This document shows, piece after piece, positions 9,632 through 49,900 of a stretch of 64,000 nucleotides of DNA (positions within the stretch are counted from its first letter, which is position 1; each line of letters starts with the position of its first letter). The DNA lies in contig NZ_BJXA01000032.1 of NCBI RefSeq assembly GCF_007990755.1, positions 1 to 64,000 of the forward strand, in the 5' to 3' direction. The DNA comes from Nocardia ninae NBRC 108245 (GTDB taxonomy: Bacteria; Actinomycetota; Actinomycetes; Mycobacteriales; Mycobacteriaceae). The notes below the pieces were generated by a model. The model searched no databases. It was not told the DNA's origin and worked only from the letters and a program-made list of their open reading frames with translations. Position numbers and translations under genes: made by a program.

Positions 9632-9701
9632 GGGGGATAGGGCCTTTCGGATTGGGAGGTTGCTGGGGCGAGGCGATAGGTGCGCAGGACGCGGCGGTGG
9701 G

Positions 9702-9905: not shown

Positions 9906-9911
9906 CTGCCA

Positions 9912-10441: not shown

Positions 10442-10445
10442 GGGC

Positions 10446-10922
10446 TCACCGCCTCAGCGGCGACAGGCAAGCACGAGTCGCCTCGACAACTAACACCCCT
10501 GACGGCCGGAATCCGCTGCTGGGCTCTCGCACCCACTCTCGACGCCCGATCTCCGAACCGAAAGGCGACGGCAACGCGACCTCGTAACCGACCGGAACGA
10601 CCGAGACGTGATGGCGAAACAATTCGGCGAGCAACGCCGCCGCACGGGGTATGTCCGGGTGCACCAGAAACCACCACCGTTTCGAGCGCGGGTGCGAAAC
10701 GATAGGTACGACCTGCTCCTTGTCGGGGACGAGCAGGCCCGCTCTGACCCGTGTGCCGAGGTGGGCGGGCATCATGACCGCCCCGACGCTGCCGACGGTG
10801 AACACGACCCGTGCCAAGTCAGGCCGCACTCGGGCGGGCAACCCGCACGTGACTTGATAGAACCGGCGCTGTGACTCCAGCGCTGCGGCCCGGTTGTCAG
10901 GGAGAAGCTCGCTGTTTCCCAT
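10446..10922 (-). CDS. Hypothetical protein, possibly related to small primase/polymerase-like proteins
   Basis: The 158-residue product has alternating strand/helix character with a distinctive RSKRWWFLVHPD segment and SVGAVMMPAHLG. These faintly recall small actinobacterial proteins annotated as bifunctional DNA primase/polymerase, but the catalytic acidic residues of archaeal-eukaryotic primases are not evident. I therefore leave it as hypothetical. It begins 6 bp after its upstream neighbour. Confidence 0.58.
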   Translation of the reverse strand: MGNSELLPDNRAAALESQRRFYQVTCGLPARVRPDLARVVFTVGSVGAVMMPAHLGTRVRAGLLVPDKEQVVPIVSHPRSKRWWFLVHPDIPRAAALLAELFRHHVSVVPVGYEVALPSPFGSEIGRREWVREPSSGFRPSGVLVVEATRACLSPLRR

Positions 10923-10928
10923 GCCGGG

Positions 10929-11291
10929 TCACTCGGTCCCGGCCGCTGGTGATGGCTGGCCGCAATCCGGTTCGACCATGCGGACTTTCAGCTCGGCAAC
11001 ACCCTGCGCACGCGGCAGCCCCTCGACCTTCTCTCGGACTTCACTGGTAATCCAGCCGCTCGTTTCCATCTCCGCGAGCAGCCCGGCGAACTCCTCAAGT
11101 GTGGGCATGTTCGCCTCGTAGAACAGGATCTTGCCGGTCACCCCGTCCGCCTTCCTGGGCGGCGGCGGCCCACCAGCCGAGAACTGGGCAACCTGCTCCG
11201 GGGTGCCGAATTGCTCAAGATGAAACAACTCCGCGTAGTAGCTCTGCTGCGGCGTCATGTCGTCGCGGCTCTCTTCGTCTTCCGAACCCAT
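10929..11291 (-). CDS. Acidic hypothetical protein, first gene of the minus-strand operon
   Basis: A 120-residue acidic protein with GAGGAGG ahead of its ATG. A helical N-terminus (QQSYYAELFHLEQFGTPEQV) leads into a short proline run, then a helical C-terminal half. It is the first of seven nearly contiguous genes running down to 8349. The promoter should lie in the 222-bp gap shared with the divergent XRE regulator. Confidence 0.6.
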   Translation of the reverse strand: MGSEDEESRDDMTPQQSYYAELFHLEQFGTPEQVAQFSAGGPPPPRKADGVTGKILFYEANMPTLEEFAGLLAEMETSGWITSEVREKVEGLPRAQGVAELKVRMVEPDCGQPSPAAGTE

Positions 11292-33431: not shown

Positions 33432-33538
33432 GCAGCGGATACTATTCCATCACCCGGACATCGGCGGTGCCCCCGACGCGCCTCATACCCCGATCCGGCG
33501 ACCGATGTGAACGCGATACCGGCCGATGAGGGGGATCC

Positions 33539-34987
33539 TTGCCGAAAGTCCGTGCGACGGCGACCATTACCGCCGCGCTGATCGTCGTGCTGCTGGTCGC
33601 GGGCTGTACCCGACTCATCGACGGCCGTGCCGTCTCGATCTACGACGACCCGTTCAAAGTGGCAGGACTGCCAACCACCAGCGGTCCCAGCGGCCCCCGG
33701 CCCGGCGTCGAGGACAGCTCGCTGAAGGCGACCAACGGGGACGGTAGCGCCGAGGACACCCTGGCCCTCAACGCAGTCGAGGACATCCAGACCTACTGGC
33801 GCACCGAGTTCGGCAAAGAGTTCCAGAACGCCGATTTTCAGCCGGTCGAGAAGCTCATCTCCTGGAGCGCGAAGGCGCCGCGCAGTGATTCCGTCGAATT
33901 CTGCAAGGAGACCACCTTTCATCTGGTGAACGCCGCGTACTGCCGCTTGGACAACTCCATCGGCTGGGACCGCTCGGTGCTGCTGCCCGCCATGACGGAG
34001 ACCTTCGGCAAGATGGCCGTGGTCATGGTGCTCGCGCACGAGTACGGGCACGCGGTGCAGACCATGGCCAAGCTGGTCGGCGCCAAGGATCCGGTGATCG
34101 TCAAGGAGCAGCAGGCGGACTGCTTCGCCGGTGCGTTCATGCGCTCGGTCGCGGAGGGCAAGTCCAAGCACTTCACCATCAATACCTCCGACGGCCTCAA
34201 CTCGGTGCTCGCCGCCACCGTGGCCATCCGCGACTCCGACCCCGACGATCCGGAGAGCGTGCACGGCTCGGCCTTCGAGCGCGTCACCGCCGTGCAGGTC
34301 GGTTTCACCGACGGCCCGAAGGGCTGCAAGCGCATCGATATGGACGAGATCACCCAGCGGCGCGGCAATCTACCGAAGGACTTCAAGGACGACACCGGCC
34401 GCGGCGAATACGAGATCAACAAGGAAACGCTGATCGAGCTCAGCAAGGCCCTCGCCGCGCTGCTGCCGACCAAGCCGTCACCGACCTACGACTACTCCGG
34501 CGCCAAGATCACCTGCCGCAACGGGGTGCCGACCGAGCCGGTCAGCTACTGCCCCGAGAAGAACACCATCGGCACCGACATCCCCGCCCTCGCCCAGCGC
34601 GGTGCCTCCAACTGGGATGTGGACGACCCCCTGCCGCTCAAGGTGACCGGCGACTACAACGGCTACATCGTCTTCATCTCCCGCTACACCCTTGCGGTGC
34701 AGCAGAACCAGGGTCAGCAGCTCGTCGGCGCCAAGACCGGCCTGCGCGCGGCCTGCCTGTCCGGCGTGATCACCGGCAAGCTCGCCCAGCCGGGCCGAAG
34801 CTCCGGCCAAGGCGACATCAGCCTGGCCGCAGGCGATCTCGACGAAGCCGTCTCCGGCCTGCTCACCGACGGCCTGGCGGCCAGTGACACCGAGGGCAAC
34901 ACCGTGCGCAGCGGGTTCGCCCGCGTCGACGCCTTCCGCGCCGGCGTGATCAACGGCGAAAAGACCTGCATGTCAAGGTATTCCTGA
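33539..34987 (+). CDS. Neutral zinc metallopeptidase lipoprotein
   Basis: Start is TTG 33539 with GAGGGGG 5 nt upstream. The signal segment ends in lipobox VAGC (Cys23), so the 482-residue protein is anchored outside the membrane. The zinc motif HEYGH lies at residues 167–171 in VVMVLAHEYGHAVQTMA, with a downstream acidic region (KEQQADCFAGAFM) supplying the third-ligand glutamate/aspartate type seen in YpfJ-like peptidases. It is divergent from the FHA–ABC gene. Substrates might be surface or T7SS proteins (inference). Confidence 0.88.
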   Translation: MPKVRATATITAALIVVLLVAGCTRLIDGRAVSIYDDPFKVAGLPTTSGPSGPRPGVEDSSLKATNGDGSAEDTLALNAVEDIQTYWRTEFGKEFQNADFQPVEKLISWSAKAPRSDSVEFCKETTFHLVNAAYCRLDNSIGWDRSVLLPAMTETFGKMAVVMVLAHEYGHAVQTMAKLVGAKDPVIVKEQQADCFAGAFMRSVAEGKSKHFTINTSDGLNSVLAATVAIRDSDPDDPESVHGSAFERVTAVQVGFTDGPKGCKRIDMDEITQRRGNLPKDFKDDTGRGEYEINKETLIELSKALAALLPTKPSPTYDYSGAKITCRNGVPTEPVSYCPEKNTIGTDIPALAQRGASNWDVDDPLPLKVTGDYNGYIVFISRYTLAVQQNQGQQLVGAKTGLRAACLSGVITGKLAQPGRSSGQGDISLAAGDLDEAVSGLLTDGLAASDTEGNTVRSGFARVDAFRAGVINGEKTCMSRYS

Positions 34988-35007
34988 CCTGAAGATGGGT
35001 TCGCTTC

Positions 35008-36297
35008 TCATCCGCCGAACGGTGGCGGGGCCATCGGCTCGAAGCGCAGCACACGATTACCGAGCATGACCTCGGCGCCCGGGACCAGCACCATGGATTG
35101 GTTGGGGGCCAGGCGAATCCAGTCGCGGTAGCCGGGCAAACGGGTGCGGGTTCCATTGGTCGAGCCGCGATCCACGACGGTCACATCCCAATTCATGAGG
35201 TGGATCTCGGCGTGCGCGCGGGACATGCCGCCCGAGGAGTCCTCCACCCGCAACGGGACCAGGCCACGTTGCGCGGCATCGGAATGCTCTGGGTCGCGGC
35301 CGATTACCGCGTCCGCGGCGAGCACGAAGGATATGCCGTCATCGAGGATCAGCATGCCCAGCGGCGGCCGGACCACCTCGATCAACGGCTGGGTCTGGTC
35401 CACCGGCATGCCACACACCGTGCAGAACGCCGCCCGTGGGTCGCTGGGATGCGCTCTGGCGCACTTGAATCCCATCACCTTGACGGTGAGCGCGGTGGAC
35501 TTCGCGGTGGCTTCCAGTCGGCGCTGCAGGTCCGGGTCGGGCGGCGGGGCCGGGGTGGTACCGCGCAGCTGGGTCGGCGCGTGCTGCGGGTCCGGTGTAC
35601 CGCCGGTCCGGTGCGCGGCGGTCGCCGCCTGACTTCCGGTGGGCGGCTCCGCTTCTCGCTGCGACTCCGATGGCGGGTCGTGGTCGATGCGCGCGGTCGG
35701 CAGCGGCGCCTCCTCGTTGCGCCGATGCGCTCCTTCACGTACCGCGCCGGACCGGGCCCGCGCCCCGTCGGACCAGATGATCGCGCCACCCGCCTGTGCG
35801 ATGCCCTCGACGAGCCAGCCGATGCCGCGCTCCGCAGGCAGCTCGGGAATACGCCCCTTCGCGTCGTCGACGAACAACGCGACGGCCCGAGCGGGCACGT
35901 TGGCCACCCGATCGACGGTGAACGCCGCGTCACTGCCCCGGTACCGCTCGACCGCGCCGTCCCCGGCCAGCACCGCAGTCACCGCACCGTGCAGGAAAAT
36001 CGCCACCCCGCCGTTCGCTGCACGGGACAGAATCCCGAAGTCGATCGGCTCCCCCGGGCTGATCTGCTCGGCATGCTTCATCAACCAGCGCGTGGCCTCC
36101 CGCGCCACCAACGCCCCCGGCCCGTTCGGCTCGTGCTCGGTGGCCGTACGAACCAATTCGGCCAGCGATTCCAGGGCTAGCGCGGCCGGCGAATCCTGGG
36201 CCGGCCTGCCCCGTCCGCGATGCGCGACAACCACCACCGCCCCCGCGACGCGCGCCACCGCGTGACTACCGACAACGACCTCGACCTGCCGGTCCAT
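35008..36297 (-). CDS. FHA-domain protein with zinc-ribbon-like motif
   Basis: ATG 36297 (MDRQVEVVVGSHAVARV) is preferred within a longer frame that opens at 36420; no clear ribosome-binding site decides it. The 429-residue protein has an N-terminal alpha/beta domain of about 200 residues that I cannot assign. A Pro/Arg-rich linker and a short zinc-ribbon-like segment (CARAHPSDPRAAFCTVCG) follow. The C-terminal FHA domain (about 330–425) shows IGRDPEH, SRAHAEIHL and RGSTNGTR, the phosphothreonine-binding residues. It is a likely reader of the neighbouring Ser/Thr kinase. Confidence 0.85.
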   Translation of the reverse strand: MDRQVEVVVGSHAVARVAGAVVVVAHRGRGRPAQDSPAALALESLAELVRTATEHEPNGPGALVAREATRWLMKHAEQISPGEPIDFGILSRAANGGVAIFLHGAVTAVLAGDGAVERYRGSDAAFTVDRVANVPARAVALFVDDAKGRIPELPAERGIGWLVEGIAQAGGAIIWSDGARARSGAVREGAHRRNEEAPLPTARIDHDPPSESQREAEPPTGSQAATAAHRTGGTPDPQHAPTQLRGTTPAPPPDPDLQRRLEATAKSTALTVKVMGFKCARAHPSDPRAAFCTVCGMPVDQTQPLIEVVRPPLGMLILDDGISFVLAADAVIGRDPEHSDAAQRGLVPLRVEDSSGGMSRAHAEIHLMNWDVTVVDRGSTNGTRTRLPGYRDWIRLAPNQSMVLVPGAEVMLGNRVLRFEPMAPPPFGG

Positions 36298-36443
36298 CAA
36301 AGGAATCGGCCTCGGCGAAGCGGGCGTTGCGGGGTCGTTTGCACACGACCCAGGGTATTGCAATCCCACAACTATCGGGCCCCCTGCCCGGCGTCCGTCC
36401 GGTAACTTCAGTGGCAGCACGTGGAGGAAACGAGGGGCCGGTC

Positions 36444-37649
36444 ATGGTTCGGACATCACGTATCGCGCTGGTCGCATCGTGTATCACAGTGGCTGGTCTG
36501 CTGACCGGATGCGGCGGCGTGCCGGGCACCGCCACCGCGGGCGAGATCGACGTACGCCAGCTGGAAGTCGGCACCTACGCGGTCGACCGCCACCGGTACG
36601 ACCAGGACGCGGGCGACAAAGCCGCGCTGGTCGAGGGCATGCGAATGTCCGACGCGGTGGTCCCGACCGTGCAGATCGACCCGTCGCTGAAGGTCGGCCG
36701 GGGCAGCGCCGTGGTCGCCGACGCCGAGCAGGCGCTCGATTTCGTCGCCAAGTCCTCCAAGCCGGTCTTCGACGATCGCAAACTCATCACCGGCTACGCC
36801 GCCAGCGGCGCCGATCGCCCCGACCCCGAGGGACAGACCAACCCGGCCCCCGAGGCCACCGCGGTCACCATCGCGTTGTTCCGCTTCCCGGACCCGGCGA
36901 TCGCGAAGCTCGCCGCGCGTGAGCTCGAGGACGTCGACATCGCCATCTCACCGGAGAACCGCAAACTACCGTCCACCACATACCCGGACGCCTACATCCA
37001 TTGGCGCCCCGGCGTTCCCACCGTCGGCACCTTCATGGCCCACAAGGAATTCGTCATCTCCTTGTTCATCCAGCGCCCCCACGCCGACAGCACCGACCTG
37101 GTGGAGTGGGTCGACAAATCCCTCGCCGCCGAGCTGACCCAGCTGGACAAGTTCCAGGCCACGCCGCAGGCGAAGATCAAGGACTTGCCGGTCGACCCCG
37201 AAGGGCTGCTCGCCCGCGTCGCCGTCAGCGACCGCAAGAACCGCACCCCCGACACCGCCACCTTCGCTATTTTCGGCCCGCACCACATGGTGCACCGGGC
37301 CGACGACGAATCGGCACACCTGCGCCTGATCCAAGAGGCGGGCGTGGACCGCCAGGCCATCGCCGACGACAGCTACGTCGCGCGCACCAGGGACAGCGCC
37401 GCCGCCCAGGAACTGGCCGCCGGATTGATGGAAAGCGAAGGCGCACACTACGACACGCTGGGGGCGCCGAAGGACGTGCCCGGTGCGAAATGTCTGCAGC
37501 TCAACAGCAAGGGCAATCCGGAACGCGAATACAAGTTCCGGTGCTACGTCGCATACAAACGTTATGTGGGTGTCGTCACCAGCGACAAAGAACCGGATGT
37601 CCGGCAGAAGGTGGCGGCCGAATACGCGCTGCTCGCGAACAGTCTGTGA
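36444..37649 (+). CDS. Lipoprotein, type A of the five-member array
   Basis: The 401-residue protein has a signal peptide ending in LLTGC, then GEIDVRQLEVGTYAVD, the start shared by type A members. Mid-protein it has FPDPAIAKLAARELED and a YPDAYIHWRPG motif. The C-terminus carries two spaced cysteines before VAYKRYVGVV and ends with AAEYALLANSL. All five members share this end. I believe the family is annotated DUF7373 in Nocardia (from memory). No enzymatic motif is visible. Probably a surface-exposed sensor, adhesin or T7SS accessory protein. Confidence 0.82.
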   Translation: MVRTSRIALVASCITVAGLLTGCGGVPGTATAGEIDVRQLEVGTYAVDRHRYDQDAGDKAALVEGMRMSDAVVPTVQIDPSLKVGRGSAVVADAEQALDFVAKSSKPVFDDRKLITGYAASGADRPDPEGQTNPAPEATAVTIALFRFPDPAIAKLAARELEDVDIAISPENRKLPSTTYPDAYIHWRPGVPTVGTFMAHKEFVISLFIQRPHADSTDLVEWVDKSLAAELTQLDKFQATPQAKIKDLPVDPEGLLARVAVSDRKNRTPDTATFAIFGPHHMVHRADDESAHLRLIQEAGVDRQAIADDSYVARTRDSAAAQELAAGLMESEGAHYDTLGAPKDVPGAKCLQLNSKGNPEREYKFRCYVAYKRYVGVVTSDKEPDVRQKVAAEYALLANSL

Positions 37650-37734
37650 GGCGGTCCGCAACATTATGGTCGGGTGCCGCGGCACGCGGTGACGTAGGAT
37701 TCCGCGGGAACCACAGTCCGTCAGGGGAGGGACC

Positions 37735-38949
37735 TTGCAGCCGCACGCGAAGACGATGCCGCGCCGAACGACGTATGCCCTGGTCGCGACGGCAGCACTG
37801 GTGGTCGTCAGCGGTGGCTGCGGGTCCGACGAGCAGCGTGCGAACAACCCGCCTCCGTCCATCGATCTCAGCAGGCTCGATGTAGGAAATTACGATACGA
37901 AGCCGCGTCAGTTAGGCGCCGTGAAAAGTCACGACCAGGCTCGAATTATCGAAGCGGAACGGCTCGGCAATTTCGTGCCCGCGGCACTGGACATCGATCC
38001 CCGCTTCGTGCACGGCAATCCGTTCATGGCAACGGTGTTCGTCGATCCGGAAGCCGCCCTCGGCAAGGTGATGGCGGTGGACCGATTCGCCGAGGCCGCC
38101 CCGGATTTCGTCGCCGGCTTTCAGAGCTTCGGCCGCACCGAGGCCGAGAACCGAGGCATTGATCTGATGAACGCGGTCATGGTCTTCCCGGACGAACAGA
38201 AGGCCAAGGACGCGGCCGCCGCGCTGGAACGGGTCGACTACGAGGCAGGCGAGCGCAACACCGCCGTGCCGATCCCGAAATATCCGGCGGCATATGCCCA
38301 TTGGCAGCCGAACCAGCAGTCGATCGGATCATGGTTCGCCACCGGCAAATTCGTCGTCTACACGTGGGTCTACGACTATCTGAAGATCTATATCGAGAAG
38401 GTCGACCTGCCCGCCCTGATCGCGCTGGTGGAGAAGAGCCTCGACACGGTGGTTCCGTCCATCACCAAGTTCACACCGACCCCGCCCGACCAGCTGATGA
38501 ACTTGCAGATCGATCTGGACGGCATGCTGAACCGCACCATCGCACGCCCCAGAGAGGACTCGTGGCTCAATCCGCCCGGTGCGTACCACGGCCGCACCGC
38601 TATCCATTTCGCCAATAACGCCGCCGAGGTGTTGCGCGACATCGAGAAAGCGGGCGTCGACCGTTTCGCGGCGAACGGGATCGACCTCTATCGGGCCCGT
38701 GATGCCGCCGCGGCCACGACATTGCAGCAAGACCTCGGTGGGCTCACGAAGCGATTCAAGAAGGCCGACTCCCCCGCCAACCTGCCGGTTGCCGAATGCA
38801 AGGAGTACATCGGGCGCGGCAACCTGGCGATCCGCTTCTACTGCTCGGTGTCCTACGACCGCTACGCCGCGTTCTCCGCGTCGCACCAGTTGTTGGACGC
38901 CCAACAGCGGATCGCCGCCGAATACACAGTGCTGGTGAATGCCCGATGA
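37735..38949 (+). CDS. Lipoprotein, type B of the array
   Basis: Start is TTG 37735, directly behind GGGGAGG; ATG 37756 would be 25 nt away from it. Signal peptide with candidate lipidation Cys in SGGCGS. The 404-residue protein carries the type B signature SRLDVGNYDTKP with FVPAALDIDPRF about 45 residues later, then NAVMVFPDEQKAKDAAAALE and YPAAYAHWQPN. It ends with the family C-terminus (FYCSVSYDRYAAF, QQRIAAEYTVL). Its TGA overlaps the next ATG (ATGA), coupling it to a type A partner. Confidence 0.82.
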   Translation: MQPHAKTMPRRTTYALVATAALVVVSGGCGSDEQRANNPPPSIDLSRLDVGNYDTKPRQLGAVKSHDQARIIEAERLGNFVPAALDIDPRFVHGNPFMATVFVDPEAALGKVMAVDRFAEAAPDFVAGFQSFGRTEAENRGIDLMNAVMVFPDEQKAKDAAAALERVDYEAGERNTAVPIPKYPAAYAHWQPNQQSIGSWFATGKFVVYTWVYDYLKIYIEKVDLPALIALVEKSLDTVVPSITKFTPTPPDQLMNLQIDLDGMLNRTIARPREDSWLNPPGAYHGRTAIHFANNAAEVLRDIEKAGVDRFAANGIDLYRARDAAAATTLQQDLGGLTKRFKKADSPANLPVAECKEYIGRGNLAIRFYCSVSYDRYAAFSASHQLLDAQQRIAAEYTVLVNAR

Positions 38950-40166
38950 GGCGCGCGTTCCTGATCCCCTTCGCCGCCTTGCTCGCGGCGGGCCTCACGG
39001 CCTGCGGATCCACCATGCCCGGGACCGTCGAACCCGCCGAGATCGACATTCGCACGCTCGATACCGGGTCCTACCCGACCGAGCCGCTCAATGCGCACGA
39101 CGACGACTACAAACCGGATTTCATCACCATGCCGCACATCGCGGCGATGCGGTTGTCGGACTACGTGGTACCCGCCTACGAAATAGACCCGAAACTGAAA
39201 TACAGCCAGCTGCCGTTCGAGATCACCCGCGGCTCGCTGCCGTCCGAACTCGGCATCGAACCCGACCTGAAACCGATCGCCGCGCGGCACAAACTGCTGT
39301 TCGGCTTCCGGACAACCGGTTTCGATCAGAAGACGTCGATCATTCCGTCCGGCTGGCCGGTCAAGACCCGGCAGAACACCACGACCATCTCGACGATGGT
39401 CATGCAGTTTCCCGACGTCGAGCGGGCAACGGCGGCAGCGGCCGAGTTCCATGACGCCGACCTCGCCGCCAACCGCGACAACCAGCGGGTGCCGCTGCCC
39501 AAGTACCCGGCGGCCCGGGCACAGTGGCGGCCGGATGCGCCGTTCCTGCGCACCACCCTCGCCCACGGCCCTTATGTCGTCGCACTGCTCGTCTCCTCCA
39601 ACGGGCCGGACCTGCCCGCACTGACGGCGCTCGCCGAAAAGACCTACGACATTCAGCTTCCGGTGCTGGACCAGCTGAAGCCGCTCACCGAAGAAGAGAC
39701 CTATCAGCTGCCATGGGACCCGGATCATCTGCTGAGCCGCGCATTGAATCCGAACAAATTCGAACGACCGGCGATAGGCACGCAAGCGCTCTACAATTTG
39801 CGCGGAATCGTCCAGTACGCCGATGATTTGAGCGTCGCGAAACAGCGCTTCAGCGCGATGAACGCCGACCGCTTCGCCGTATCCGACGGAACAATCGTGG
39901 CCCGCACACCCGACGCGGCGGCGGCGAAGAGAATTGTCGCCGAAAGGCTCACACCCGCCCCGGTCGCGAACGATGCCGCAGCACCACCGAATGTGCCGGA
40001 TTCGGCCTGCGTCGAGCACAGGCAAGAGGCCTTCAACTTCGAGATGAAGCGATTCACCTGTGTCGTCGCTTACCGCCAATACGCGGGATTCGTGACCGGC
40101 AACCAGTTGCTCGACGTCCACCAACGCGCCGCCGCGCAGTACGCAATCTTCGCCAACAGCCGGTAA
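38946..40166 (+). CDS. Lipoprotein, type A, coupled to the preceding type B gene
   Basis: The 406-residue protein begins with a signal peptide ending in GLTAC and the type A signature PAEIDIRTLDTGSYPTEPL. Further shared motifs are RHKLLFGF, TMVMQFPDVERATAAAAEF, YPAARAQWRPD and the C-terminal FTCVVAYRQYAGF with AAQYAIFANSR. The overlapping start shows it is made together with the type B protein, perhaps as a heteromer. Function unknown. Confidence 0.82.
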   Translation: MRRAFLIPFAALLAAGLTACGSTMPGTVEPAEIDIRTLDTGSYPTEPLNAHDDDYKPDFITMPHIAAMRLSDYVVPAYEIDPKLKYSQLPFEITRGSLPSELGIEPDLKPIAARHKLLFGFRTTGFDQKTSIIPSGWPVKTRQNTTTISTMVMQFPDVERATAAAAEFHDADLAANRDNQRVPLPKYPAARAQWRPDAPFLRTTLAHGPYVVALLVSSNGPDLPALTALAEKTYDIQLPVLDQLKPLTEEETYQLPWDPDHLLSRALNPNKFERPAIGTQALYNLRGIVQYADDLSVAKQRFSAMNADRFAVSDGTIVARTPDAAAAKRIVAERLTPAPVANDAAAPPNVPDSACVEHRQEAFNFEMKRFTCVVAYRQYAGFVTGNQLLDVHQRAAAQYAIFANSR

Positions 40167-40242
40167 TGCGACGCCGCCGTCCCATCCCGAGCGGTCCAGT
40201 ATGCTGCCGCGTGGGGAGCACCGACTCAGGAGATTGTGGATC

Positions 40243-41796
40243 ATGGCGATAAGCCCCGGCACCATCGTGGGCGGGTACCGCATCCAGGGCGTGCTCGGTG
40301 CGGGCGGCATGGGCACCGTTTACCTGGCCAAACATCCCAGCCTGCCGCGGATGGACGCGCTGAAGGTGCTCAGCGGCGAACTCAGCAACGACCACGAATT
40401 CCGCACCCGCTTCGAGCGCGAAGCCAATCTCGCCGCCGGACTCGACCATCCGAACATCGTGTCGGTCTACAACCGTGGCGAAGAAGACGGCCGGCTGTGG
40501 ATCGCCATGCAGTACGTCGACGGCACCGACGCCTCCGCGGAACTGACCCGCGACCGGCATTCGATGAATCCGCTACGCGCGCTACGCATTACCACCGAGG
40601 TGGGCAAAGGCCTCGACTACGCGCACCGAAAAGGCTTGCTGCACCGCGACGTCAAGCCCGCCAACTTCCTGCTCTCCTCCAGCGAGGGTGACGAAGAACG
40701 CGTCCTGCTCACCGATTTCGGCGTCGCCAAATCCAACGACGACACCACCGAACTCACCCAGACCGGCAGCTTCGTCGCCACCATCGCCTACGCCCCGCCC
40801 GAACAGCTGGTCGGCGGCCACCTCGACCATCGTGCCGACATCTACAGCCTCGCCTGCGCCTTCTTCAAGCTGCTCACCGGCCGAAACCCTTACCCGGCAA
40901 CGCAACCCGCGCTGGTCATGATGGGCCACCTGCACGAGCCACCCCCGCTGGCCACCGCCGTCGACCCCGGGCTACCGCCCGCCATCGATCATGTCTTCGC
41001 CAAGGCGCTGGCGAAAGACCCCACCGACCGGTACAACACCTGCCGCGAATTCACCGACGCGGCCGCGAGCGCGCTCATCCCGGGGCACAATCCCGCCCCC
41101 ACGAACACCTCGCCGACCTATCCCATCCAGGTCTTCGATCCGCGGCCGAATACCGACCCGCGCGTAGCGGTTTCGTCACCACACGCAGTGGTGTCCGCTC
41201 CGCCCAGTTCTCGGAAACGGTGGTTCGTCGGCGCAGGTGCCGGTGCAGTCGTCGTCGCCTTGGCCGTAGGCATCGGGATTTGGACGTTGGGCGGGAACGA
41301 CTCCGCCAATACCAGTGCCGCCACCGGCACTGTCTCGGCCGGTTCGACCGTCGCGGTGAGTTCGTTGCCGTCGATCGAACAGGCCCGGGCTACCAATCCG
41401 GCGTTCCGCGGCAAGACCATCACCGTGGTGGATGTGCCACGGAGCAAACAGGTCTCGATTTTCCTGGGCGGTTCGGCGCAGACGAAGTTCCTCGAAGACT
41501 TGGGTTTCGTCTATAACCCCAACTACCCCAAACAGGGTGATGAGACGTTGCGCGTGCTGCCCAACGCCGAGTCGCTCGAGGTCAACGCGGACAGCTTCGT
41601 GCTAGCGGTGCGGACCGACGAAGACGCTGGCAGCGGCGGGCTGCGCGGACTGCCCTATCAGGTCGCGGGTACTCGGGCCACGGTCATCCCGCTGGACGAT
41701 GCCGAAGCTGTAGCGGCGTTCCGCAATTGGGGTGCCGGCTCGGAGCAGGTGTTGCTCGACAAGCTGGTGCCGCTGCTGCAGAAGCGGGTGAAGTAG
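40243..41796 (+). CDS. Transmembrane Ser/Thr protein kinase with extracellular sensor domain
   Basis: The 517-residue PASTA-less PknB-type kinase has all catalytic elements: glycine loop GAGGMG (19–24), Lys41, HRD at 134–136, DFG at 158–160 and APPEQ at 184–188. A Pro-rich juxtamembrane segment precedes one transmembrane helix (about 327–349) and an extracellular domain of about 160 residues. That domain (ARATNPAFRGKTITVVDVP, NWGAGSEQVL) is unfamiliar to me. It sits between two lipoprotein pairs and near two FHA proteins, so it probably senses an envelope signal and phosphorylates the FHA–ABC exporter, the FHA protein or T7SS components. Confidence 0.93.
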   Translation: MAISPGTIVGGYRIQGVLGAGGMGTVYLAKHPSLPRMDALKVLSGELSNDHEFRTRFEREANLAAGLDHPNIVSVYNRGEEDGRLWIAMQYVDGTDASAELTRDRHSMNPLRALRITTEVGKGLDYAHRKGLLHRDVKPANFLLSSSEGDEERVLLTDFGVAKSNDDTTELTQTGSFVATIAYAPPEQLVGGHLDHRADIYSLACAFFKLLTGRNPYPATQPALVMMGHLHEPPPLATAVDPGLPPAIDHVFAKALAKDPTDRYNTCREFTDAAASALIPGHNPAPTNTSPTYPIQVFDPRPNTDPRVAVSSPHAVVSAPPSSRKRWFVGAGAGAVVVALAVGIGIWTLGGNDSANTSAATGTVSAGSTVAVSSLPSIEQARATNPAFRGKTITVVDVPRSKQVSIFLGGSAQTKFLEDLGFVYNPNYPKQGDETLRVLPNAESLEVNADSFVLAVRTDEDAGSGGLRGLPYQVAGTRATVIPLDDAEAVAAFRNWGAGSEQVLLDKLVPLLQKRVK

Positions 41797-41944
41797 CCCG
41801 AGCGGTATCGCGGGGCAACCACTTCGAATGCTATGTTGCCGACTGCGATACGTCGTCGCCGCAGGCTTGACCAGCGCGCGAACGTATTCCGGGGGGATCG
41901 CTGTTCGTCGGATGCCCTCCGCTTGCCGGTCGATGGAGGGAACG

Positions 41945-43132
41945 ATGCGGAGACCACTCAGAATGCTGGCAGCCGGACTGGTCGCCTTGTCGGTGAGCGC
42001 AGCTGGGTGTGGGTCGGATTCACCGCCGCCGACGCCGGTCGTTGATGTCAGCCACCTCGACGTTGGTAGCTACGCAACCGCACCACGCGAAATCGGCAAG
42101 CCCGGATTCGACCGCGCGAGATTGAGCGAAGGCCAACGCCTCGCCAGCTTTGTTCCGTTGCCGATGGACATCGACCCGCGATTCACCGTCCAGTCCGGCT
42201 CCGGCACCAACGTCACCCTGGGATTCATCGAAACCGTCTATGCCCTCGAACTTTCCGCCGACCCTTTCCGGGCGATCACACCAGGCTTCATAGCGGGCTT
42301 CTACAGCCTCGGATATTCCGAGAGCGATATATTGATCGCCACGTCACTCACGAATACCGTGCTGTTGTTCTCCGATCAGCAGGCCGCCACACTGGCCGCA
42401 CCGGCTCTCGCACAGGCAGTCGCCGAGAAGAAGGGACTGAGCGCACCCGTCGCCATCGGCAACCGTCCGGATGCATTCGCGTTCTGGAAACCGGGGACTC
42501 AGGAGCTTTACGCGTTCCAGGCGAGCGGGCAGTACGTCATCTACACCACGATCAGAGATCGAGCCAAGATCCTGCTCGAGACCACCGATCTACCCGCCAT
42601 GGTCGCGCTCACCGAGAAGAGCTTCGATACGGTGGGTACCCGGCTTCGCGAGTTCCGCCCGACGCCACGGGACAAGCTGACAGATGTCCCTCTCGACCGC
42701 GACGGCATGCTCGGGCGTTCATTGACTCGACCGAGAGAAGACGATTGGAGCAATCCTCCCGGCCTCTACGACCGCACCGGTGCGCTCCATATGAGCGATG
42801 ATCCGCTGAGCGATAAGAAGCTCTTCGAGGAAGCCGGGGTCGACTGGATAGCGAACTCCGCCGGAAACGTCTACCGGGCCGAGGATTCAGCAGGCGCGCA
42901 ACTCATTCGGGACCGGCACAGTGAATTGAGCAAACTATATCGCCGGATCGACCCGCCGAAGAATCTGCCCGACGCACGCTGCCGTGAGTTCCGGGCGAAG
43001 AATTCGCTCGTCCTCAGATTCCATTGCGTGGTGTCCTACGACCGCTATACCGCAGAGGTGCGGTCGGGCCAGCTGATCGATGTACAGCAACGGATCTCGG
43101 CGCAGTACGCGATTCTCACGAAAGCGAAATGA
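41945..43132 (+). CDS. Lipoprotein, type B, second B–A pair
   Basis: ATG 41945 is preceded by GGAGGGA. The signal peptide ends in SAAGC. The 395-residue protein shows the type B signature SHLDVGSYATAP with FVPLPMDIDPRF downstream, which makes it a paralogue of the gene at 37735. It shares TRPREDDWSNPPG with that protein's ARPREDSWLNPPG. The C-terminus FHCVVSYDRYTAEV and QQRISAQYAIL is the family end. Its stop overlaps the next start by 4 bases. Confidence 0.82.
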   Translation: MRRPLRMLAAGLVALSVSAAGCGSDSPPPTPVVDVSHLDVGSYATAPREIGKPGFDRARLSEGQRLASFVPLPMDIDPRFTVQSGSGTNVTLGFIETVYALELSADPFRAITPGFIAGFYSLGYSESDILIATSLTNTVLLFSDQQAATLAAPALAQAVAEKKGLSAPVAIGNRPDAFAFWKPGTQELYAFQASGQYVIYTTIRDRAKILLETTDLPAMVALTEKSFDTVGTRLREFRPTPRDKLTDVPLDRDGMLGRSLTRPREDDWSNPPGLYDRTGALHMSDDPLSDKKLFEEAGVDWIANSAGNVYRAEDSAGAQLIRDRHSELSKLYRRIDPPKNLPDARCREFRAKNSLVLRFHCVVSYDRYTAEVRSGQLIDVQQRISAQYAILTKAK

Positions 43133-44397
43133 GCCGCATGATCAACCTACGTATGCGGCACGTGCCCGCTGCCCTCGTGCTGCTCATCGCCACCGGGTGC
43201 GGCGCGCCGATGACCGGGACACCGCAGCCAGGTGAGATAGATGTCCGTTCCCTCGACGTCGGCCAATACTCTACGGAGCCGCTGGATACCTACTCCGAAT
43301 ACGCGCACTCGGTGCGCCGCGGAACAGCACTGGCGATCTCGCGCCTGGCAAACCATGTGGTGACCGGTATCGATATCGACGCCAAGCTGCGCTACGGCAC
43401 CGGCGTGCAGGAAATCGCCAAGCCCGACGATGTCAAGAACGTCCTGGCGGAACCGGGTGTATCGATCGCGGCTCGGCACAAGATGCTGTTCGGATTCGCT
43501 TCCGGTAGTAGCGATTTCCGGGCGGAGCCGCACGTGGCCGTGGCGCCGGATGCGACGCTCACCACCGTGGCGGTCATGCAGTTTCCTGACCCAGGGTCCG
43601 CAGAACGGGCTGCGGCCGAATTCGAAGAGGCTGACTTCTCCGTGGCTTCGGACCAGAACGAGCGTGTGCAGCTCGCGAAGCACCCACGGGCGCATTCCCA
43701 TTGGCGGCCCGGCACTCCGACGATCGGTTCGGTCGTCGCGCACGGAAACTATGTGGTCAATACCTTTATCTCCACAGCCAGGCCCGACCTCGCCGACCTG
43801 ACCGCCCTTGCCGAGAAGGTCTACACGGCACAGCTGCCGATGCTCGACACCCTCGCGCCCCTGTCGGCCGAACAGGCCCTGCGATTGGACCTCGACCCCG
43901 AGGGTGACATTCGTCGAATCCTCAATCCAGGCAAACTCGATATACCCAGTGTCGGCAGTCTCGCGGCATACAAACTGCAAGGATTTCTACATTGGCAGAC
44001 AGACCGCACTGCGGCGAAAGATCTTTACGCACACGGTGAACGTTTCGTCTTCTCGAGCGCCTACTCGTCGACAACGAACAGCTACACCAGGGGAATCGCC
44101 CAAAGCTTCGGTAAGGGCATCGGCAGATTCTTGGACGGAGCCATTCTGATCCGAGCGCGGGATATCGACTCGGCGCAGGCTCTTTGGTCGAAGATTCTCG
44201 ACGCACCGGATACGAGTCAGGCACCGCCCAGAGTTCCGAACAGTAAATGCGCCGAGCTTCCGACGGAGGGGTACGTCAGGGACTGGGTTTGCGCCGTTCG
44301 GTACCGCAACTACGTGGGCTATGTCTGGAGCACCCAACTGCAGGACACACAGCAGCGCGCGGCCGCTCAGTACGCACTGCTCGCCAACAGCCAGTAG
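43129..44397 (+). CDS. Lipoprotein, type A, second B–A pair
   Basis: Start is ATG 43129 inside an ATGA overlap; ATG 43138 is also possible. Signal peptide ending in LIATGC. The 422-residue protein has PGEIDVRSLDVGQYSTEPL, RHKMLFGFASG, AVMQFPDPGSAERAAAEFEE and HPRAHSHWRPG. It ends with WVCAVRYRNYVGYV and AAQYALLANSQ. It is paralogous to the gene at 38946, with which it shares order, overlap and length, indicating duplication of the whole B–A pair. Confidence 0.82.
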   Translation: MSRMINLRMRHVPAALVLLIATGCGAPMTGTPQPGEIDVRSLDVGQYSTEPLDTYSEYAHSVRRGTALAISRLANHVVTGIDIDAKLRYGTGVQEIAKPDDVKNVLAEPGVSIAARHKMLFGFASGSSDFRAEPHVAVAPDATLTTVAVMQFPDPGSAERAAAEFEEADFSVASDQNERVQLAKHPRAHSHWRPGTPTIGSVVAHGNYVVNTFISTARPDLADLTALAEKVYTAQLPMLDTLAPLSAEQALRLDLDPEGDIRRILNPGKLDIPSVGSLAAYKLQGFLHWQTDRTAAKDLYAHGERFVFSSAYSSTTNSYTRGIAQSFGKGIGRFLDGAILIRARDIDSAQALWSKILDAPDTSQAPPRVPNSKCAELPTEGYVRDWVCAVRYRNYVGYVWSTQLQDTQQRAAAQYALLANSQ

Positions 44398-44787: not shown

Positions 44788-45105
44788 ATGGCAGGACAGC
44801 TCGAAGCGAACGAAATCCTCATCGAGAAGTTCGCACAAAACGCCAGGGATCGTCACGCTGACCTGATGAAGGCGATCACCCTGCTGGATAAGAAGTCGGA
44901 CGACACGACCATGACCTGGCAGGGCCAGGCACGGGCGGCGTTCGATGCGCTGATGGACAACTACTTCGCCCAGGCGCGCAAGCTGAACGACACGCTGGAC
45001 CAGACCGCCGACAAGCTCAGCAAGGCGGGTAAGTCCTTCGCGGCTCAGGACGAGCAGTTCGCCCAGCAGGTGGCACAGCAGGCCTCCAGCCTGAACCTGC
45101 CCTGA
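44788..45105 (+). CDS. WXG100 protein, EsxU/EsxB-like
   Basis: The 105-residue helical-hairpin protein has the WXG turn at W44-Q45-G46 (MTWQGQARAAFDALMDNYF). It has no signal peptide, as expected for ESX substrates that leave through the T7SS as heterodimers. It is paired with the second WXG100 gene 40 bp downstream. Compared from memory with M. tuberculosis ESX-4, it is closer to EsxU. A C-terminal YxxxD/E export signal is not obvious. Confidence 0.9.
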   Translation: MAGQLEANEILIEKFAQNARDRHADLMKAITLLDKKSDDTTMTWQGQARAAFDALMDNYFAQARKLNDTLDQTADKLSKAGKSFAAQDEQFAQQVAQQASSLNLP

Positions 45106-45145
45106 TCGCTCAGCCGAACCACCAGATACCAAGGAGAAGCTCCAG

Positions 45146-45448
45146 ATGGTAGCAAACGACCCAAGCACAATTTCCTCCAACTTCGGCGCGGTCGAGGCTG
45201 GCGCGCAGTCCATCGTGGCCGAAGCGCGGAACATCACGGCCATGCTCGAGGATTTCCACAAGCAGGTCACCGACTTCGTGACCAACTACTGGAAGGGTGA
45301 CGCCAACGAGGCCTTCGCTCAGCTCCAGTCGCAGTGGAACACCAGCGTCACCCAGCTGAACGCCACGCTGGAGACCGCCGGTCGGGCTGTCAGCAGCGGT
45401 AACACCGATCTGCAGGCCACCGACACCAGCTTGGCAAACCTCTTCTGA
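45146..45448 (+). CDS. WXG100 protein, EsxT/EsxA-like
   Basis: The 100-residue partner of the preceding protein has W49-K50-G51 in VTNYWKGDANEAFAQLQSQW. The N-terminus (NDPSTISSNFGAVEAGAQSI) resembles EsxT of mycobacterial ESX-4. The stretch YWKGD would fit YxxxD, but at the turn rather than in the usual C-terminal position. A strong terminator follows. Unlike in M. tuberculosis, the pair is on the opposite strand to eccC. Confidence 0.9.
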   Translation: MVANDPSTISSNFGAVEAGAQSIVAEARNITAMLEDFHKQVTDFVTNYWKGDANEAFAQLQSQWNTSVTQLNATLETAGRAVSSGNTDLQATDTSLANLF

Positions 45449-45537: not shown

Positions 45538-46995
45538 TCACGGAATCACGCGGACCGAACTACCGAAGGTCTCGCACGTAGTCGAGAGCGCCTGCCAATT
45601 GTTGTCGGCATATTGGCAGCCGATGCTGACCTGAATTCCATACTCCAGCAGCACATGCCAGCGGACAGTAGAACCGTCACCGGGCCGTTCGGTATACGCG
45701 AGAGTGGATCGTCCCCCGTAGACGACATCGCGTTTGAGCTCGGACATCACCCCGGCCGGCCGTTGCTTCATCTGCGTCTCGAGCCGCGCCGCAACCTGCT
45801 CATAGCTCGACCCCGGCGCTACCGGCGTTTGCGTCACTGTGACACGTAGCCGGGCACCATCGTCCGGGGACAGCTCGACCCGGGACCTACCGCTGGTGTC
45901 GGGAGCCGACGCCATATGCCAACCAGCCGGCACCTGAAAACGAATGCGCCCATACGTTTCCGGCCCGATGGCAACAGTGCTGCTAGGCGGGCCGGCGGTA
46001 CTGCTCGGCACCGATTCGCTACTCGGCGCCGAGGTGCCAGGCGCGGCAGTCGGACCGTCATCGGGTCCATTCAGCAGCACAACCCCGCCGACGATAGCGG
46101 CACCGACAACGACAATCGCAGCAACAGCCGCGCTCACATAACCGAGCCCGTTGCGCCGAGGCTGTTGCGCCGCAGCACGTTCGCGCAGCGGCTGCATCCA
46201 TTCGGTCTGCGGCAGCGCGGCCGGCAACTCCGGTTGCTGGATCGGTTCGGTCTGGTGCCCGCGGATCAGATCGGGCCCGGTCAGCGCCCGCAGCGCGACA
46301 CCCGGTCCACACCGCTGCTGCACGGCCGCGCGAAGTACATCGAGTTTCGCCGCATCGGTGACACCCACCGACTGCGCCAGATCGGCAGGCTGACCATCGA
46401 GCAGCCGGTCGAGCAGCGCGCACAGGGTGGTGAAGCCGCTGGATTCCGGCAGTATCTCGGCGAGCGCGAGAGTTGGCGCATGTTCACACGATTCGACGTG
46501 TACACCCTGATGGCTGCGGATGACCGTGCTGGCCGTGGTGGTGAGCGCACCGAATTCCAGCACCAATGTGCGCCGACTGTGGCTGGTGCCCTCGTCCGAC
46601 GCGACGGCCCGCACCGCCAACTCCTCGAACACCACGTCCGTGGTGAACCGCCGAGCCGCCTGGTCGAGCACGGAACGACGCGACGCACCCCATTCCGTCG
46701 GACAGATCACCGTGATCCGCTCGCACGGCGCGCTGACGCGCAAATTCTCCAACACGGCGCCGAACACCGCGACCAGACCGTCGACCACGGACGGAACGCG
46801 CGGCAGCAACGCGACGGCCTCGGCGGGCACGTACTGCACCACGGAACTCACCTGTGTCGGCGGGGTCAGCGACTCCCCGACCACCAGGTCGAACCCGTTG
46901 CTGCCCAACACGATCGACGGTGCCACGTCCCAGTGCGTCGTCGCGCCACGCGCCCAGACGCGCGTGTCGGTGACCACCAGCTCGACGGTAGCCAT
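45538..46995 (-). CDS. Type VII secretion-associated protein, Rv3446c family
   Basis: The 485-residue protein has an N-terminal actin/Hsp70-like region (about 1–210, e.g. HSRRTLVLEFGALTTTASTV). A transmembrane helix (GYVSAAVAAIVVVGAAIVGG, about 283–308), a Ser/Thr/Pro linker and an extracytoplasmic C-terminal domain (IRFQVPAGWHM, RWHVLLEYG, CETFGSSVRVIP) follow. This is the family found between eccC4 and esxU in ESX-4 loci. Its ATG overlaps the eccC stop by one base, so the two are translationally coupled. Its role in secretion is not established. Confidence 0.85.
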   Translation of the reverse strand: MATVELVVTDTRVWARGATTHWDVAPSIVLGSNGFDLVVGESLTPPTQVSSVVQYVPAEAVALLPRVPSVVDGLVAVFGAVLENLRVSAPCERITVICPTEWGASRRSVLDQAARRFTTDVVFEELAVRAVASDEGTSHSRRTLVLEFGALTTTASTVIRSHQGVHVESCEHAPTLALAEILPESSGFTTLCALLDRLLDGQPADLAQSVGVTDAAKLDVLRAAVQQRCGPGVALRALTGPDLIRGHQTEPIQQPELPAALPQTEWMQPLRERAAAQQPRRNGLGYVSAAVAAIVVVGAAIVGGVVLLNGPDDGPTAAPGTSAPSSESVPSSTAGPPSSTVAIGPETYGRIRFQVPAGWHMASAPDTSGRSRVELSPDDGARLRVTVTQTPVAPGSSYEQVAARLETQMKQRPAGVMSELKRDVVYGGRSTLAYTERPGDGSTVRWHVLLEYGIQVSIGCQYADNNWQALSTTCETFGSSVRVIP

Positions 46996-49900
46996 CAGGT
47001 TTGCGGCGGCATCCAGGCCGTCTGGATCAGACCCTCACTGTTGCGCGTGACGTACGTGCCGCGGCCCGGCGGCATCGGGCTCGGCCGCGTCGTCCCCATC
47101 AGCACACCCTCGTCCCGGCTGCAGCTCATGATCAGGCCGGCCGACCCGAGGTCCTTCATCCTGGCCAGCGTCGCCTCGAACATGGCACGTCCCGCGCCAC
47201 CGGAGCGCCGCGCGATGATCAGATGGAAGCCGAGGTCACGGGCGTGCGGCAGGTGTTCCACCAACGCCTGGACCGGATTACCGCTGGAGGTGGCCACCAG
47301 GTCGTAGTCGTCGACGACGACGTACAGCTCGGGGCCGCTCCACCATGAGCGATCCTTCAGCTGCTGTGGCGTCACGTCGGGACCTGGCGTCCGGTTGCTG
47401 ACGTACGCGGCGAGATCGGCCATGTTCTGCGTGAACTGGGGTGCGGTCGAGCCGTAGCCGGCGAGGTAACCCTCCGGCACCGTGCCGAGCATCGAGCGTC
47501 GGTAGTCGCCCATGATGATCCGCGCCTGGTCCGGGGTGTTCGATGCGGCGATGCCCTCGACGATCGACCGCAGCAGCGTCGTCTTTCCCGACTCGGTGTC
47601 GCCGATGACGAGGAAGTGCGGACTCACCGTGAAGTCGAGGTAGACCGGGGCCAGCTCGGCTTCGTTGATACCGATCGGGATTCGCATGCACTTGACCGAC
47701 TGATCGACCTGCGACGGCCAGTCGCCCGCGAGGTAGAGCAGCTGCTCGCGCGGCAGCTCCTCGGGCAGCATGCGCACCGGCGGGGCCGGCCGGCCCGGGG
47801 TCAGGCGGGCGATGGTCGAGACCGCCTCGCCGACTGCCTGACCGATATTGGTCGGGTCCGAACTGCCATCGATCCGTGGCAGACCGGTCAGCATGTGCAG
47901 GCAGTCCGGCGTCATACCGCGGCCGGGGCGGGCCTGCGGAACCATCGAGGCGAACTTGCGGCCGAGGTCGGAATCCATCGGATCACCGAGGCGCAGTTCG
48001 ATTCTGGTGGCGATCTGGTCCTTCAGCGCGGGCCGCGCCTCCGCCCACCGGTTCAGCGCGATGACGATGTGCACGCCATACGACAGACCCTGCACCGCCA
48101 GGTTCATGATCACCTGTTCGAGCATCTCGAAGTCCTGGCGGATGGAGCCGAAGCCGTCGATCACCAGGAACACATCGCCGAACGGGTCCTCGTGCGCGCC
48201 GGTCGCGGCCGGGCTGCTGGACGGATCCATCGCGCGCAGCCTGCGGAACTCGGTCATCGACTCGATGCCGAGCTGCCGGAATCGGGCCTCGCGCTGCCGC
48301 ACGATGGTGGTCATCTCGGCGACGGTGCGCCGGACCTGGTCCGCGTCCAATCGGCTTGCGACGGAACCGACATGCGGCAGGCCCTGCAGGCTCATCAGTG
48401 TGCCGCCACCGAAGTCGAGGCAGTAGAACTGCACCTGCTCGGCGGTGTGCGTCAGCGACATGGCCATGATCAGCGTGCGCAGCGCGGTCGACTTACCGGA
48501 CTGCGGGCCACCGACGACGGCGACGTTGCCGCGCGCACCGGACAGGTCGACCACCAGCGGGTCGCGCCGCTGGTCGTACGGCCGGTCGACGATGCCGATC
48601 GGGGCGCGCAGCGTGGCCACCGCGGAGTATTCGCCGGTGAGGATGGAGCGCGGGATCAGCTGGTCCAGCGTCGGTGCCTCGTCCAGTGGCGGCAGCCAGA
48701 TCTCGTGCGCGGGACGGCCGTGGCCGTTGATCCGCGAGACCAGCATGTGCACGTTGGAGACCTGCTCGCCGTCCTCGGCCTGCTGGTCGGCGGCGCTGGG
48801 CTCGGCGGGCAGCGGAACCCGGTCCACCGCACGGAAATCCACGTGGGTGGCGGTGAACGGCCGGGCCTTGATGTCGATCTCGCCAGACTGGGTGGCGACG
48901 GTGATGTCGCGCTGCGAACCGCCGCCGACGTAAGGGCCGGAGACGTAGGACGCCTGGAACCGCACGATCTCGCCGGAGTCCGACTTCAGGTAACCGCCAC
49001 CGGGATTGTTCGGCAGGTTGTAGGCGTCGGGCACGCCGAGCACCTGACGGGATTCGTTGGCGGAGAAGGTCTTCAAGCCGATCCGGTAGGACAGATGGCT
49101 CTCCAGGCCCTTCAGCTTTCCCTCTTCCAGGCGCTGCGAGGCGAGCAGCAGGTGCACGTGCAGCGAGCGGCCGAGCCGGCCGATCATCACGAACAGTTCC
49201 GCGAAATCCGGGTGCTGGGTGAGCAGTTCGGAGAACTCGTCGAGCACCACGAACAGGGCGGGCAGCGGATCCAGGTCGGCGCCTGCCGCACGGGCCTTCT
49301 CGTATTCGGAGACGTTGGCGAAGTTGCCCGCGGCGCGCAGTACCTCCTGACGGCGGTTCATCTCACCGGCCAGCGCGTCCTTCATGCGGTCGACGAGGTC
49401 GGCTTCTTCTTCCAGGTTGGTGATGACGGCCGCGACATGCGGCACGCTGTCGAGTCCGAGGAAGGTCGCACCACCCTTGAAGTCGACGAGCACCAGGTTG
49501 AGCTGGTCCGGCGAATGGGTGGCGAGCAAGCTGAGCACCAGGGTGCGCAGGAACTCCGACTTGCCGGAACCTGTTGCGCCGATGCACAACCCGTGCGGGC
49601 CCATGCCGTTCTCGGCGGCTTCCTTGATATCGAGTTCGACCGGCAGGCCGTCGGCGCCGACGCCGAACGGCACCCGAAGCCGCTCCCGGCCGTAGCGCGG
49701 CCGCCAGGCGTGTTCGGGGTTGAACGAGCCGATGTCGCCGAGGCCCATCAGCTGGCTCCAGGTCGAAATGACCTCGGAGTCATCGGTTTCCACGTCGCTG
49801 CTGCGCTGGGTCGCCGCCCGGTACGGCGCGAGCCTGCGGGCCACCTGCTGCGCCTGCTGCGGGCTGATCCGGTCGATCAGCGCGAAGCGCTCCTGGTTAC

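Follow-up and report, generated by a model that had tools for sequence, protein, structure and literature searches.

What bacterial receptor Ser/Thr kinases sense is an open question. One kinase of this kind with a binding-protein-like outside module is PknQ (MUP011) of the Mycobacterium ulcerans plasmid pMUM001, a 660-residue protein whose extracellular part resembles FepB (Arora et al. 2014, PMC4238996). According to that paper, PknQ binds and phosphorylates MupFHA, which in turn suppresses PknQ autophosphorylation, and a DivIVA protein belongs to the same circuit; PknQ is inhibited in vitro by Fe3+ and hemin, as is its kinase domain alone. The words "lipoprotein" and "siderophore" are both absent from the main text of the paper, and no paper joining PknQ with a siderophore was found in the literature searched. 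Here, a locus of Nocardia ninae NBRC 108245 is compared with this system. It lies in a stretch of 64,000 nucleotides (contig NZ_BJXA01000032.1, positions 1 to 64,000; hereafter the window) in which five related lipoproteins surround a receptor Ser/Thr kinase beside a type VII secretion locus. An original prediction, made from the sequence of the window, knew of no described pathway with this layout; PknQ-MupFHA is the closest one described. Receptor kinases of the substrate-binding protein (SBP) type are already known, and no description of their lipoprotein partner family, DUF7373, was found in the literature searched.

The array consists of six plus-strand genes (36444-44397) in the order A1, B1, A2, kinase, B2, A3 (Table 1); the genes, motifs, classes and order claimed in the original prediction all hold. 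The lipoprotein family is real, since all five proteins match the Pfam families PF24088 (E 7e-49 to 5e-63) and PF24092 (E 5e-27 to 6e-56). Scores range from 95 to 213 bits against a Pfam gathering score of 27, and the two matches jointly span most of each mature protein. The family is DUF7373, a name absent from the original prediction; Pfam classes it (PF24088/PF24092) as a family of unknown function, and the literature searched held no paper naming it. Counted from likely starts, the lipobox cysteine lies at residue 20-29. Across 111 aligned members, the motifs first noticed in the five proteins prove to be those of the family as a whole, with EIDVRxLDVGxY as starting, KYPxAxAHWRPG as central and AAAQYALLANS as final consensus, and the two C-terminal cysteines are invariant; A1 shares 23-35% identity with most of the 110 other aligned members. 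The ATG of A2 falls within the stop codon of B1 and that of A3 within the stop codon of B2, and these 4 bp overlaps suggest that each B-A pair of the array is probably translationally coupled. B1 itself starts at TTG 37735 or ATG 37756. Promoter and terminator scans returned nothing above chance.

DUF7373 was found in 117 of the 118 genomes of the genus, with 0 to 19 copies per genome, and the kinase ectodomain in 113. The ectodomain-negative genomes are G015 (78% complete), G031 (85% complete), G063, G029 and G088 (the last two complete). A set of 144 sensor-kinase frames was compiled, 143 of them from stretches fetched around kinase matches (up to 20 kb each; L numbers below) and one from the window, and their neighbouring genes were mapped with profiles. 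A same-strand DUF7373 frame lies within 300 bp of 142 of these 144 frames, which bears out the predicted co-occurrence of kinase and lipoproteins; this distance, like the 10 kb distance used below, was taken between stop-to-stop frames, which extend upstream of the true starts. Both exceptions lie at contig ends. L178, whose first letter is base 3 of its contig, lacks a downstream DUF7373 frame; L090 (7183-10472) shows a reversed arrangement, with two opposite-strand DUF7373 frames beside the sensor domain. Outside the window's own genome, about 514 of 729 DUF7373 matches fall in sensor-kinase stretches, an approximate figure because a count from our own profile is compared with a Pfam count.

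The linkage was also examined independently of the kinase set, by listing the DUF7373, kinase and EccC domains of seven complete Nocardia genomes. The 69 DUF7373 domains form 25 clusters, of which 21 (65 domains) have a kinase domain no more than 3 kb away, against a mean of 0.67 and a maximum of 5 clusters in 5000 trials of random placement; 264 of the 280 kinase rows entered this comparison, weak or second-fragment rows being left out. On these counts, the proposal of surface lipoproteins without a link to a kinase was rejected within Nocardia.

Nine further stretches (L192-L200) were hand-picked, not drawn at random, around high-scoring DUF7373 matches away from sensor kinases. Five have a kinase frame without the SBP-lobe ectodomain described below, and four have no kinase frame but an ESX-side FHA gene. 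Since the kinases in L192, L193, L196 and L198 differ from the sensor kinases in their outside parts, the link between lipoprotein and kinase extends to more than one type of ectodomain. The outside parts in L193, L196 and L198 look alike (an FP-x-LLP stretch, then GY and cysteines). In L194, L195, L199 and L200 the DUF7373 gene stands beside the ESX-side FHA gene, and no kinase frame was found in the fetched stretch. L192 (G000:C76:15900-35800) comes from the source genome, whose six DUF7373 domains comprise the five of the array and one on another contig; this sixth gene is downstream of two kinase-type frames (region 5921-11003), and the outside parts of both differ from the SBP lobe.

The two lipoprotein types of the original prediction were recovered in a FastTree phylogeny of the 518 DUF7373 frames (of 538) long enough to enter. 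The midpoint split, which does not prove the root, separates a 280-member side holding A1, A2 and A3 (support 0.977) from a 238-member side holding B1 and B2 (support 0.951). Several clades are specific to a position relative to the kinase: 46 of 75 members of the A1 clade (clade 0) are at u-3, 29 of 35 of the B1 clade (clade 5) at u-2, 49 of 58 of the A2 clade (clade 2) at u-1, 11 of 11 of the B2 clade (clade 15, support only 0.288) at d+1 and 12 of 12 of the A3 clade (clade 11) at d+2. Some other clades are scattered over positions. At sensor-kinase loci the classes alternate in 292 of 324 neighbour pairs (165 B-A and 127 A-B, versus 18 B-B and 14 A-A), and the most frequent arrangements are ABAK (26) and ABAKBA (11), the latter being the window's own order. 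The B-to-A junction is tight, with a gap of exactly -4 in 59 and a distance within 20 bp in 124 of the 154 pairs (of 165) for which gaps were computable. The A-to-B junction is looser (gap of -4 in 7 and over 30 bp in 66 of 126 computable pairs out of 127). For these counts, start codons were picked by a rule combining lipobox distance, codon and positive charge. Alternation and junctions together are consistent with a B-A heterodimer as the unit.

The kinase comprises a cytosolic kinase domain, one hydrophobic segment (about residues 330-350, read from the sequence), a short linker and an extracellular domain. The latter had been called unfamiliar, yet it is recognisable by fold: the prediction is a C-lobe like that of class III siderophore/heme-binding proteins (Peripla_BP_2 / FhuD-BtuF fold), without the N-lobe. 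The C-lobe fold was found; two lobes with a ligand cleft and a PF01497 match over the cut-off were not found in Nocardia. At E<=1, none of 36 Nocardia ectodomains matched PF01497, and the SBP assignment therefore rests on fold and on plasmid relatives. PF01497 is found in all five plasmid kinases examined, and the C-lobes of three plasmid kinases match the Nocardia profile with E 8e-31 to 4e-35. The linker is too short for an N-lobe in all 142 measured Nocardia kinases (62-152 residues, versus 253-266 in three plasmid kinases). Within the C-lobe (kinase residues 377-517), an RxD..AGxGG loop is conserved. With a kinase domain, a transmembrane segment and C-lobe homology, the Nocardia proteins belong to the PknQ type of receptor kinase, with only half of the SBP; PknQ itself was placed via relatives, the pMUM001 ectodomain being 62% identical to that of M. 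avium pS2b. The closest named relative found for the window is Nocardia suismassiliense (94% identity in the ectodomain). Kinase-DUF7373 fusion proteins were sought among the frames of stretches L061-L200 and the window, and none was found.

Structure prediction gives the N-domain of DUF7373 the fold of the PknH sensor (fold matches mostly cover residues 42-217). The AlphaFold2 model of mature A1 has a pLDDT of 96.4 and a pTM of 0.92, and the order of elements in its C-domain resembles that of the N-domain. In an hhalign comparison the two domains align in register, though weakly (score 21.8, probability 6%; 9.7-12.5 for five column-shuffled controls). A PknH-named Pfam family is absent from the 16 families matched by the 111 members at E<=1, a range in which HMMER filters drop most matches above ~0.1. 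A PDB sequence search with A1 gave no matches, and one with the 111-row profile gave a single chance-level match, to a mini-protein at E 1.1.

The idea of a sensor made of lipoproteins and kinase gains from mycobacterial plasmids: the four examined closely repeat the order DUF7373-DUF7373-kinase. On pMUM002, M. branderi pJCM12687, M. avium pS2b and pRAW, two DUF7373 genes lie directly 5' of an SBP-type kinase; the pair overlaps by 4 bp on pS2b and pRAW and has an annotated gap of 28 bp on the M. branderi plasmid and of 116 bp on pMUM002. pJCM18538 has a single DUF7373 gene before the kinase. These related plasmid kinases follow DUF7373 genes and retain the whole binding protein. There are 24 plasmid records with at least 97% SBP query coverage, not independent of one another since several of the plasmids are nearly identical. 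Of their matched proteins 21 bear a kinase annotation, two are called ABC transporter substrate-binding protein and one hypothetical, and DUF7373 lies within about 4 kb in 23. Shared A/B ancestry with the plasmid pairs was rejected: the nine DUF7373 proteins of five kinase-bearing plasmids form their own clade (0.999), and pairing there therefore arose separately or was overwritten. On pRAW (L268, 15115-20849) the order is FHA-helix-turn-helix protein, DUF7373, DUF7373, SBP-kinase, a possible kinase-to-transcription-factor route. On pMUM001 (L271, 3261-4422) the DUF7373 coding sequence before PknQ appears in two frames, and an unbroken copy is present on pMUM002.

Taken together, the lipoproteins and the kinase probably form one signalling unit. 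The reading towards which we lean, with somewhat better than even confidence, is a lipoprotein-assisted receptor Ser/Thr kinase with B-A pairs as co-receptors and output to FHA proteins. A and B would be made in matched amounts and would form a heterodimer on the outward-facing side of the membrane. The PknH-type clefts of the B-A pairs would hold a small or amphipathic molecule, the pairs would attach to the exposed kinase C-lobe, and this would change kinase dimerisation and autophosphorylation. From there the signal would reach the adjoining FHA protein and possibly also the FHA-ABC transporter and ESX-4 genes. As ligands, the first candidates would be molecules of the iron-siderophore or heme type and envelope lipids.

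Several observations weigh against this reading. A conserved neighbourhood is no proof of direct contact, and both contact and ligand are inferred. DUF7373 is kept without the sensor domain in G029, G088, G015 and G031, and G063 lacks both. The Fe3+ and hemin effect was also seen on the PknQ kinase domain alone and is therefore uninformative on the ectodomain. A homologue of the window FHA protein is present in 86 of 129 sensor-kinase stretches (in 78 of the 86 within 1.5 kb of a DUF7373 frame) and was not found in the other 43, which are cut at ~10 kb or at contig ends; it is therefore not demonstrable as a constant part. The plasmid DUF7373 pairs fall outside the A and B classes of Nocardia. 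One related genus has only 8 of 15 DUF7373 domains within 3 kb of a kinase (seven genomes), and five other genera have 0 of 17 (eight genomes), counts that may be low since at most 10 DUF7373 candidates were scored per genome outside Nocardia. The original prediction had named lipoproteins found mostly away from kinases and ESX genes as the pattern that would speak against it; this pattern was looked for and not found in Nocardia, and as regards kinases, which of the two were the only ones searched for there, it does appear in the eight genomes of five other genera. Lone DUF7373 genes also occur on two Prescottella/Rhodococcus plasmids, with no annotated kinase within 8 kb. The family is thus wider than the kinase system, and its link to the kinase is a feature of Nocardia, in part of the related genus, and of mycobacterial plasmids. 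The lone genes of the Prescottella equi and Rhodococcus plasmids (L264, L266) are near Hsp70, in L264 also near dynamin/GTPase genes. The ectodomain profile matches 96 of 298 genomes of the order, and most of the listed matches outside Nocardia and the related genus are frames of ~335-400 residues resembling ordinary binding proteins.

A bolder reading, though rather unlikely, is a split receptor. The kinase would have dropped the N-lobe of an ancestral receptor of the siderophore type, and exchangeable A/B pairs would supply the ligand-binding half, the ligand being held between lipoprotein and C-lobe; one kinase would then read several signals through swapped pairs and control ESX-4.

Table 1. 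Features of the window, grouped as array, upstream genes and type VII secretion genes (E-values are from profile matches).
Feature	Position	Strand	Assignment and evidence
Lipoprotein A1	36444..37649	+	DUF7373 (PF24088+PF24092), class A, distal upstream position; Pfam E 2e-61 / 5.5e-56
Lipoprotein B1	37735..38949	+	DUF7373, class B; Pfam E 4.9e-63 / 8.3e-34
Lipoprotein A2	38946..40166	+	DUF7373, class A; Pfam E 2.3e-56 / 4.8e-35
Receptor Ser/Thr kinase	40243..41796	+	Pkinase E 2.3e-42, residues 12-265
Kinase extracellular domain	41371..41793	+	predicted class III SBP C-lobe, without N-lobe
Lipoprotein B2	41945..43132	+	DUF7373, class B; Pfam E 7e-49 / 1.5e-35
Lipoprotein A3	43129..44397	+	DUF7373, class A; Pfam E 1.7e-58 / 5e-27
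FHA-ABC transporter fusion, candidate output	30900..33431	-	Pfam: two FHA stretches, ABC ATPase, ABC2 membrane
Putative neutral zinc metallopeptidase	33539..34987	+	PF04228 E 3.5e-6
FHA-domain protein, candidate phospho-dependent output partner	35008..36420	-	divergent from array; FHA E 3.3e-5
Two WXG100-type (Esx) genes	44788..45448 (44788-45105, 45146-45448)	+	read from sequence; 75 and 82 phmmer matches among frames searched
TIGR03931 (Rv3446c family) type VII secretion-associated protein	45538..46995	-	E 2.7e-42
EccC	46995..51029	-	TIGR03924 E 0, TIGR03925 E 1.9e-272
EccD	51269..52735	+	TIGR03920 E 9.3e-135
Open frame holding mycosin	51496..54147	+	TIGR03921 E 1.9e-127, match at residues 493-874
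EccB	55162..56649	-	TIGR03919 E 4.1e-158
EccE	56761..58413	+	TIGR03923 E 3e-99

The array had also been placed in an ESX-4 locus, and the ESX genes are confirmed: TIGR03931, EccC, mycosin, EccB, EccE and EccD all lie beside it. The ESX-4 gene set (EccB, EccC, EccD, mycosin, a WXG100 pair and TIGR03931) is complete, with EccE also there. The two WXG100-type genes are directly downstream of the array, and rplM/rpsI are on its other side. The ESX-4 label rests on this gene set and on what we take to be the corresponding rplM-side locus of mycobacteria, not on a tree.

This neighbourhood raises the possibility, which we consider unlikely, that the lipoproteins are type VII substrates, chaperones or envelope-anchoring parts and that the kinase regulates secretion. 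A WXG100, EccC or TIGR03931 frame lies within 10 kb of 125 of the 144 sensor kinases (EccC in 110, WXG100 in 88), all lower bounds because no fetched stretch extends beyond about 10 kb or the end of its contig. Nine of the 25 DUF7373 clusters of the complete genomes, holding 47 of the 69 domains, are within 20 kb of EccC, against a random mean of 0.29 clusters, and the module-bearing pRAW is listed in a paper on ESX plasmids. However, 16 of the 25 clusters are more than 20 kb from EccC, while 21 have a kinase at a distance of 3 kb or less; the lipoproteins have ordinary lipobox signal peptides; and the stretches covered around the pMUM002 and pRAW modules contain no ESX or type VII annotation. 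The chief partner is therefore the kinase, and the secretion locus is a common setting. Of the original suggestion that the lipoproteins are handled by the secretion system, a weaker form stands: the ESX linkage is real but secondary, and it may be regulatory or only positional. In four stretches (L128, L131, L134, L142) kinase-DUF7373 groups lie between EccE and EccB frames, perhaps in a second type VII locus, an arrangement that fits a role in secretion. So does a plasmid of Tsukamurella tyrosinosolvens (L269, 2463-9825; the 24th plasmid record), on which an SBP-kinase gene comes directly after eccD-mycP-eccE. This gene order is an independent link of the SBP-kinase type to type VII secretion; among the matches listed, DUF7373 was not seen near this kinase, its hypothetical neighbours not having been put to the test.

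To a carrier function we give about the same low credence: the lipoproteins would transport lipids or further molecules of the envelope, with the kinase merely tuning this traffic through the FHA-ABC transporter. This fusion is presumably comparable to mycobacterial Rv1747. The minus-strand frame at 33329-34264 is probably a non-gene opposite the metallopeptidase gene. A neutral zinc metallopeptidase beside an FHA gene accompanies the module both in the window (33539-36420) and on an M. arabiense plasmid (L270, 1-9840).

That the ectodomain itself binds a ferric ligand, making the kinase alone an iron or siderophore sensor and the lipoproteins unrelated neighbours or regulated targets, is improbable. 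The C-lobe fold and the plasmid relatives with a whole binding protein agree with it, but in the class III SBP fold the ligand normally sits between two lobes, all 142 measured linkers are too short for the second, and the lipoproteins are linked to the kinase far more often than chance would give. A very improbable reading is that paralogues expanded under pressure from immunity or phages, with the kinase as a bystander to surface variation. The range of copy numbers and the low identity to A1 of most members would suit it, but alternating classes and clades tied to one position are seen repeatedly in the genus, unlike free surface variation.

Since 113 of 118 genomes keep the kinase together with defined surface lipoproteins, the input side becomes testable, with few, paired genes and recognisable folds. 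DUF7373 gains a fold relative and a likely job, and PknQ, a little-studied plasmid kinase, is tied to a chromosomal system. The ectodomain is an example of a receptor without half of its binding domain that has kept conserved positions in the remainder. Should the ESX-4 link be functional, it would offer a lead to the control of a poorly understood secretion system. Among the papers listed on Nocardia with ESX-4 or with kinase, lipoprotein or type VII secretion, none deals with the array by its title or the start of its abstract; PMC4791881 contains neither "lipoprotein" nor "kinase".

Three known systems can be compared with the locus. PknG is not known to have an extracellular sensor of its own. 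In the GlnH-GlnX-PknG system of mycobacteria and corynebacteria, an extracytoplasmic binding protein informs a Ser/Thr kinase, as proposed here, but the transmembrane GlnX is required there. PknH of M. tuberculosis (sensor domain PDB 4esq) shares the fold predicted for the DUF7373 N-domain; its sensor is part of the kinase, whereas the DUF7373 proteins are longer, free-standing lipoproteins, and the kinase next to them has another kind of ectodomain. The closest likeness is to PknQ-MupFHA, a receptor Ser/Thr kinase with an SBP ectodomain, an FHA partner gene on the same plasmid and a DUF7373 coding sequence directly upstream of the kinase gene on pMUM001; the Nocardia ectodomain shares homology with the C-lobes of other plasmid kinases, the related one of pMUM002 among them. 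There are differences too: the three measured plasmid kinases have room for a whole SBP and the Nocardia kinases for a C-lobe only, and the window array adds five lipoproteins, the A and B classes and an ESX-4-type locus.

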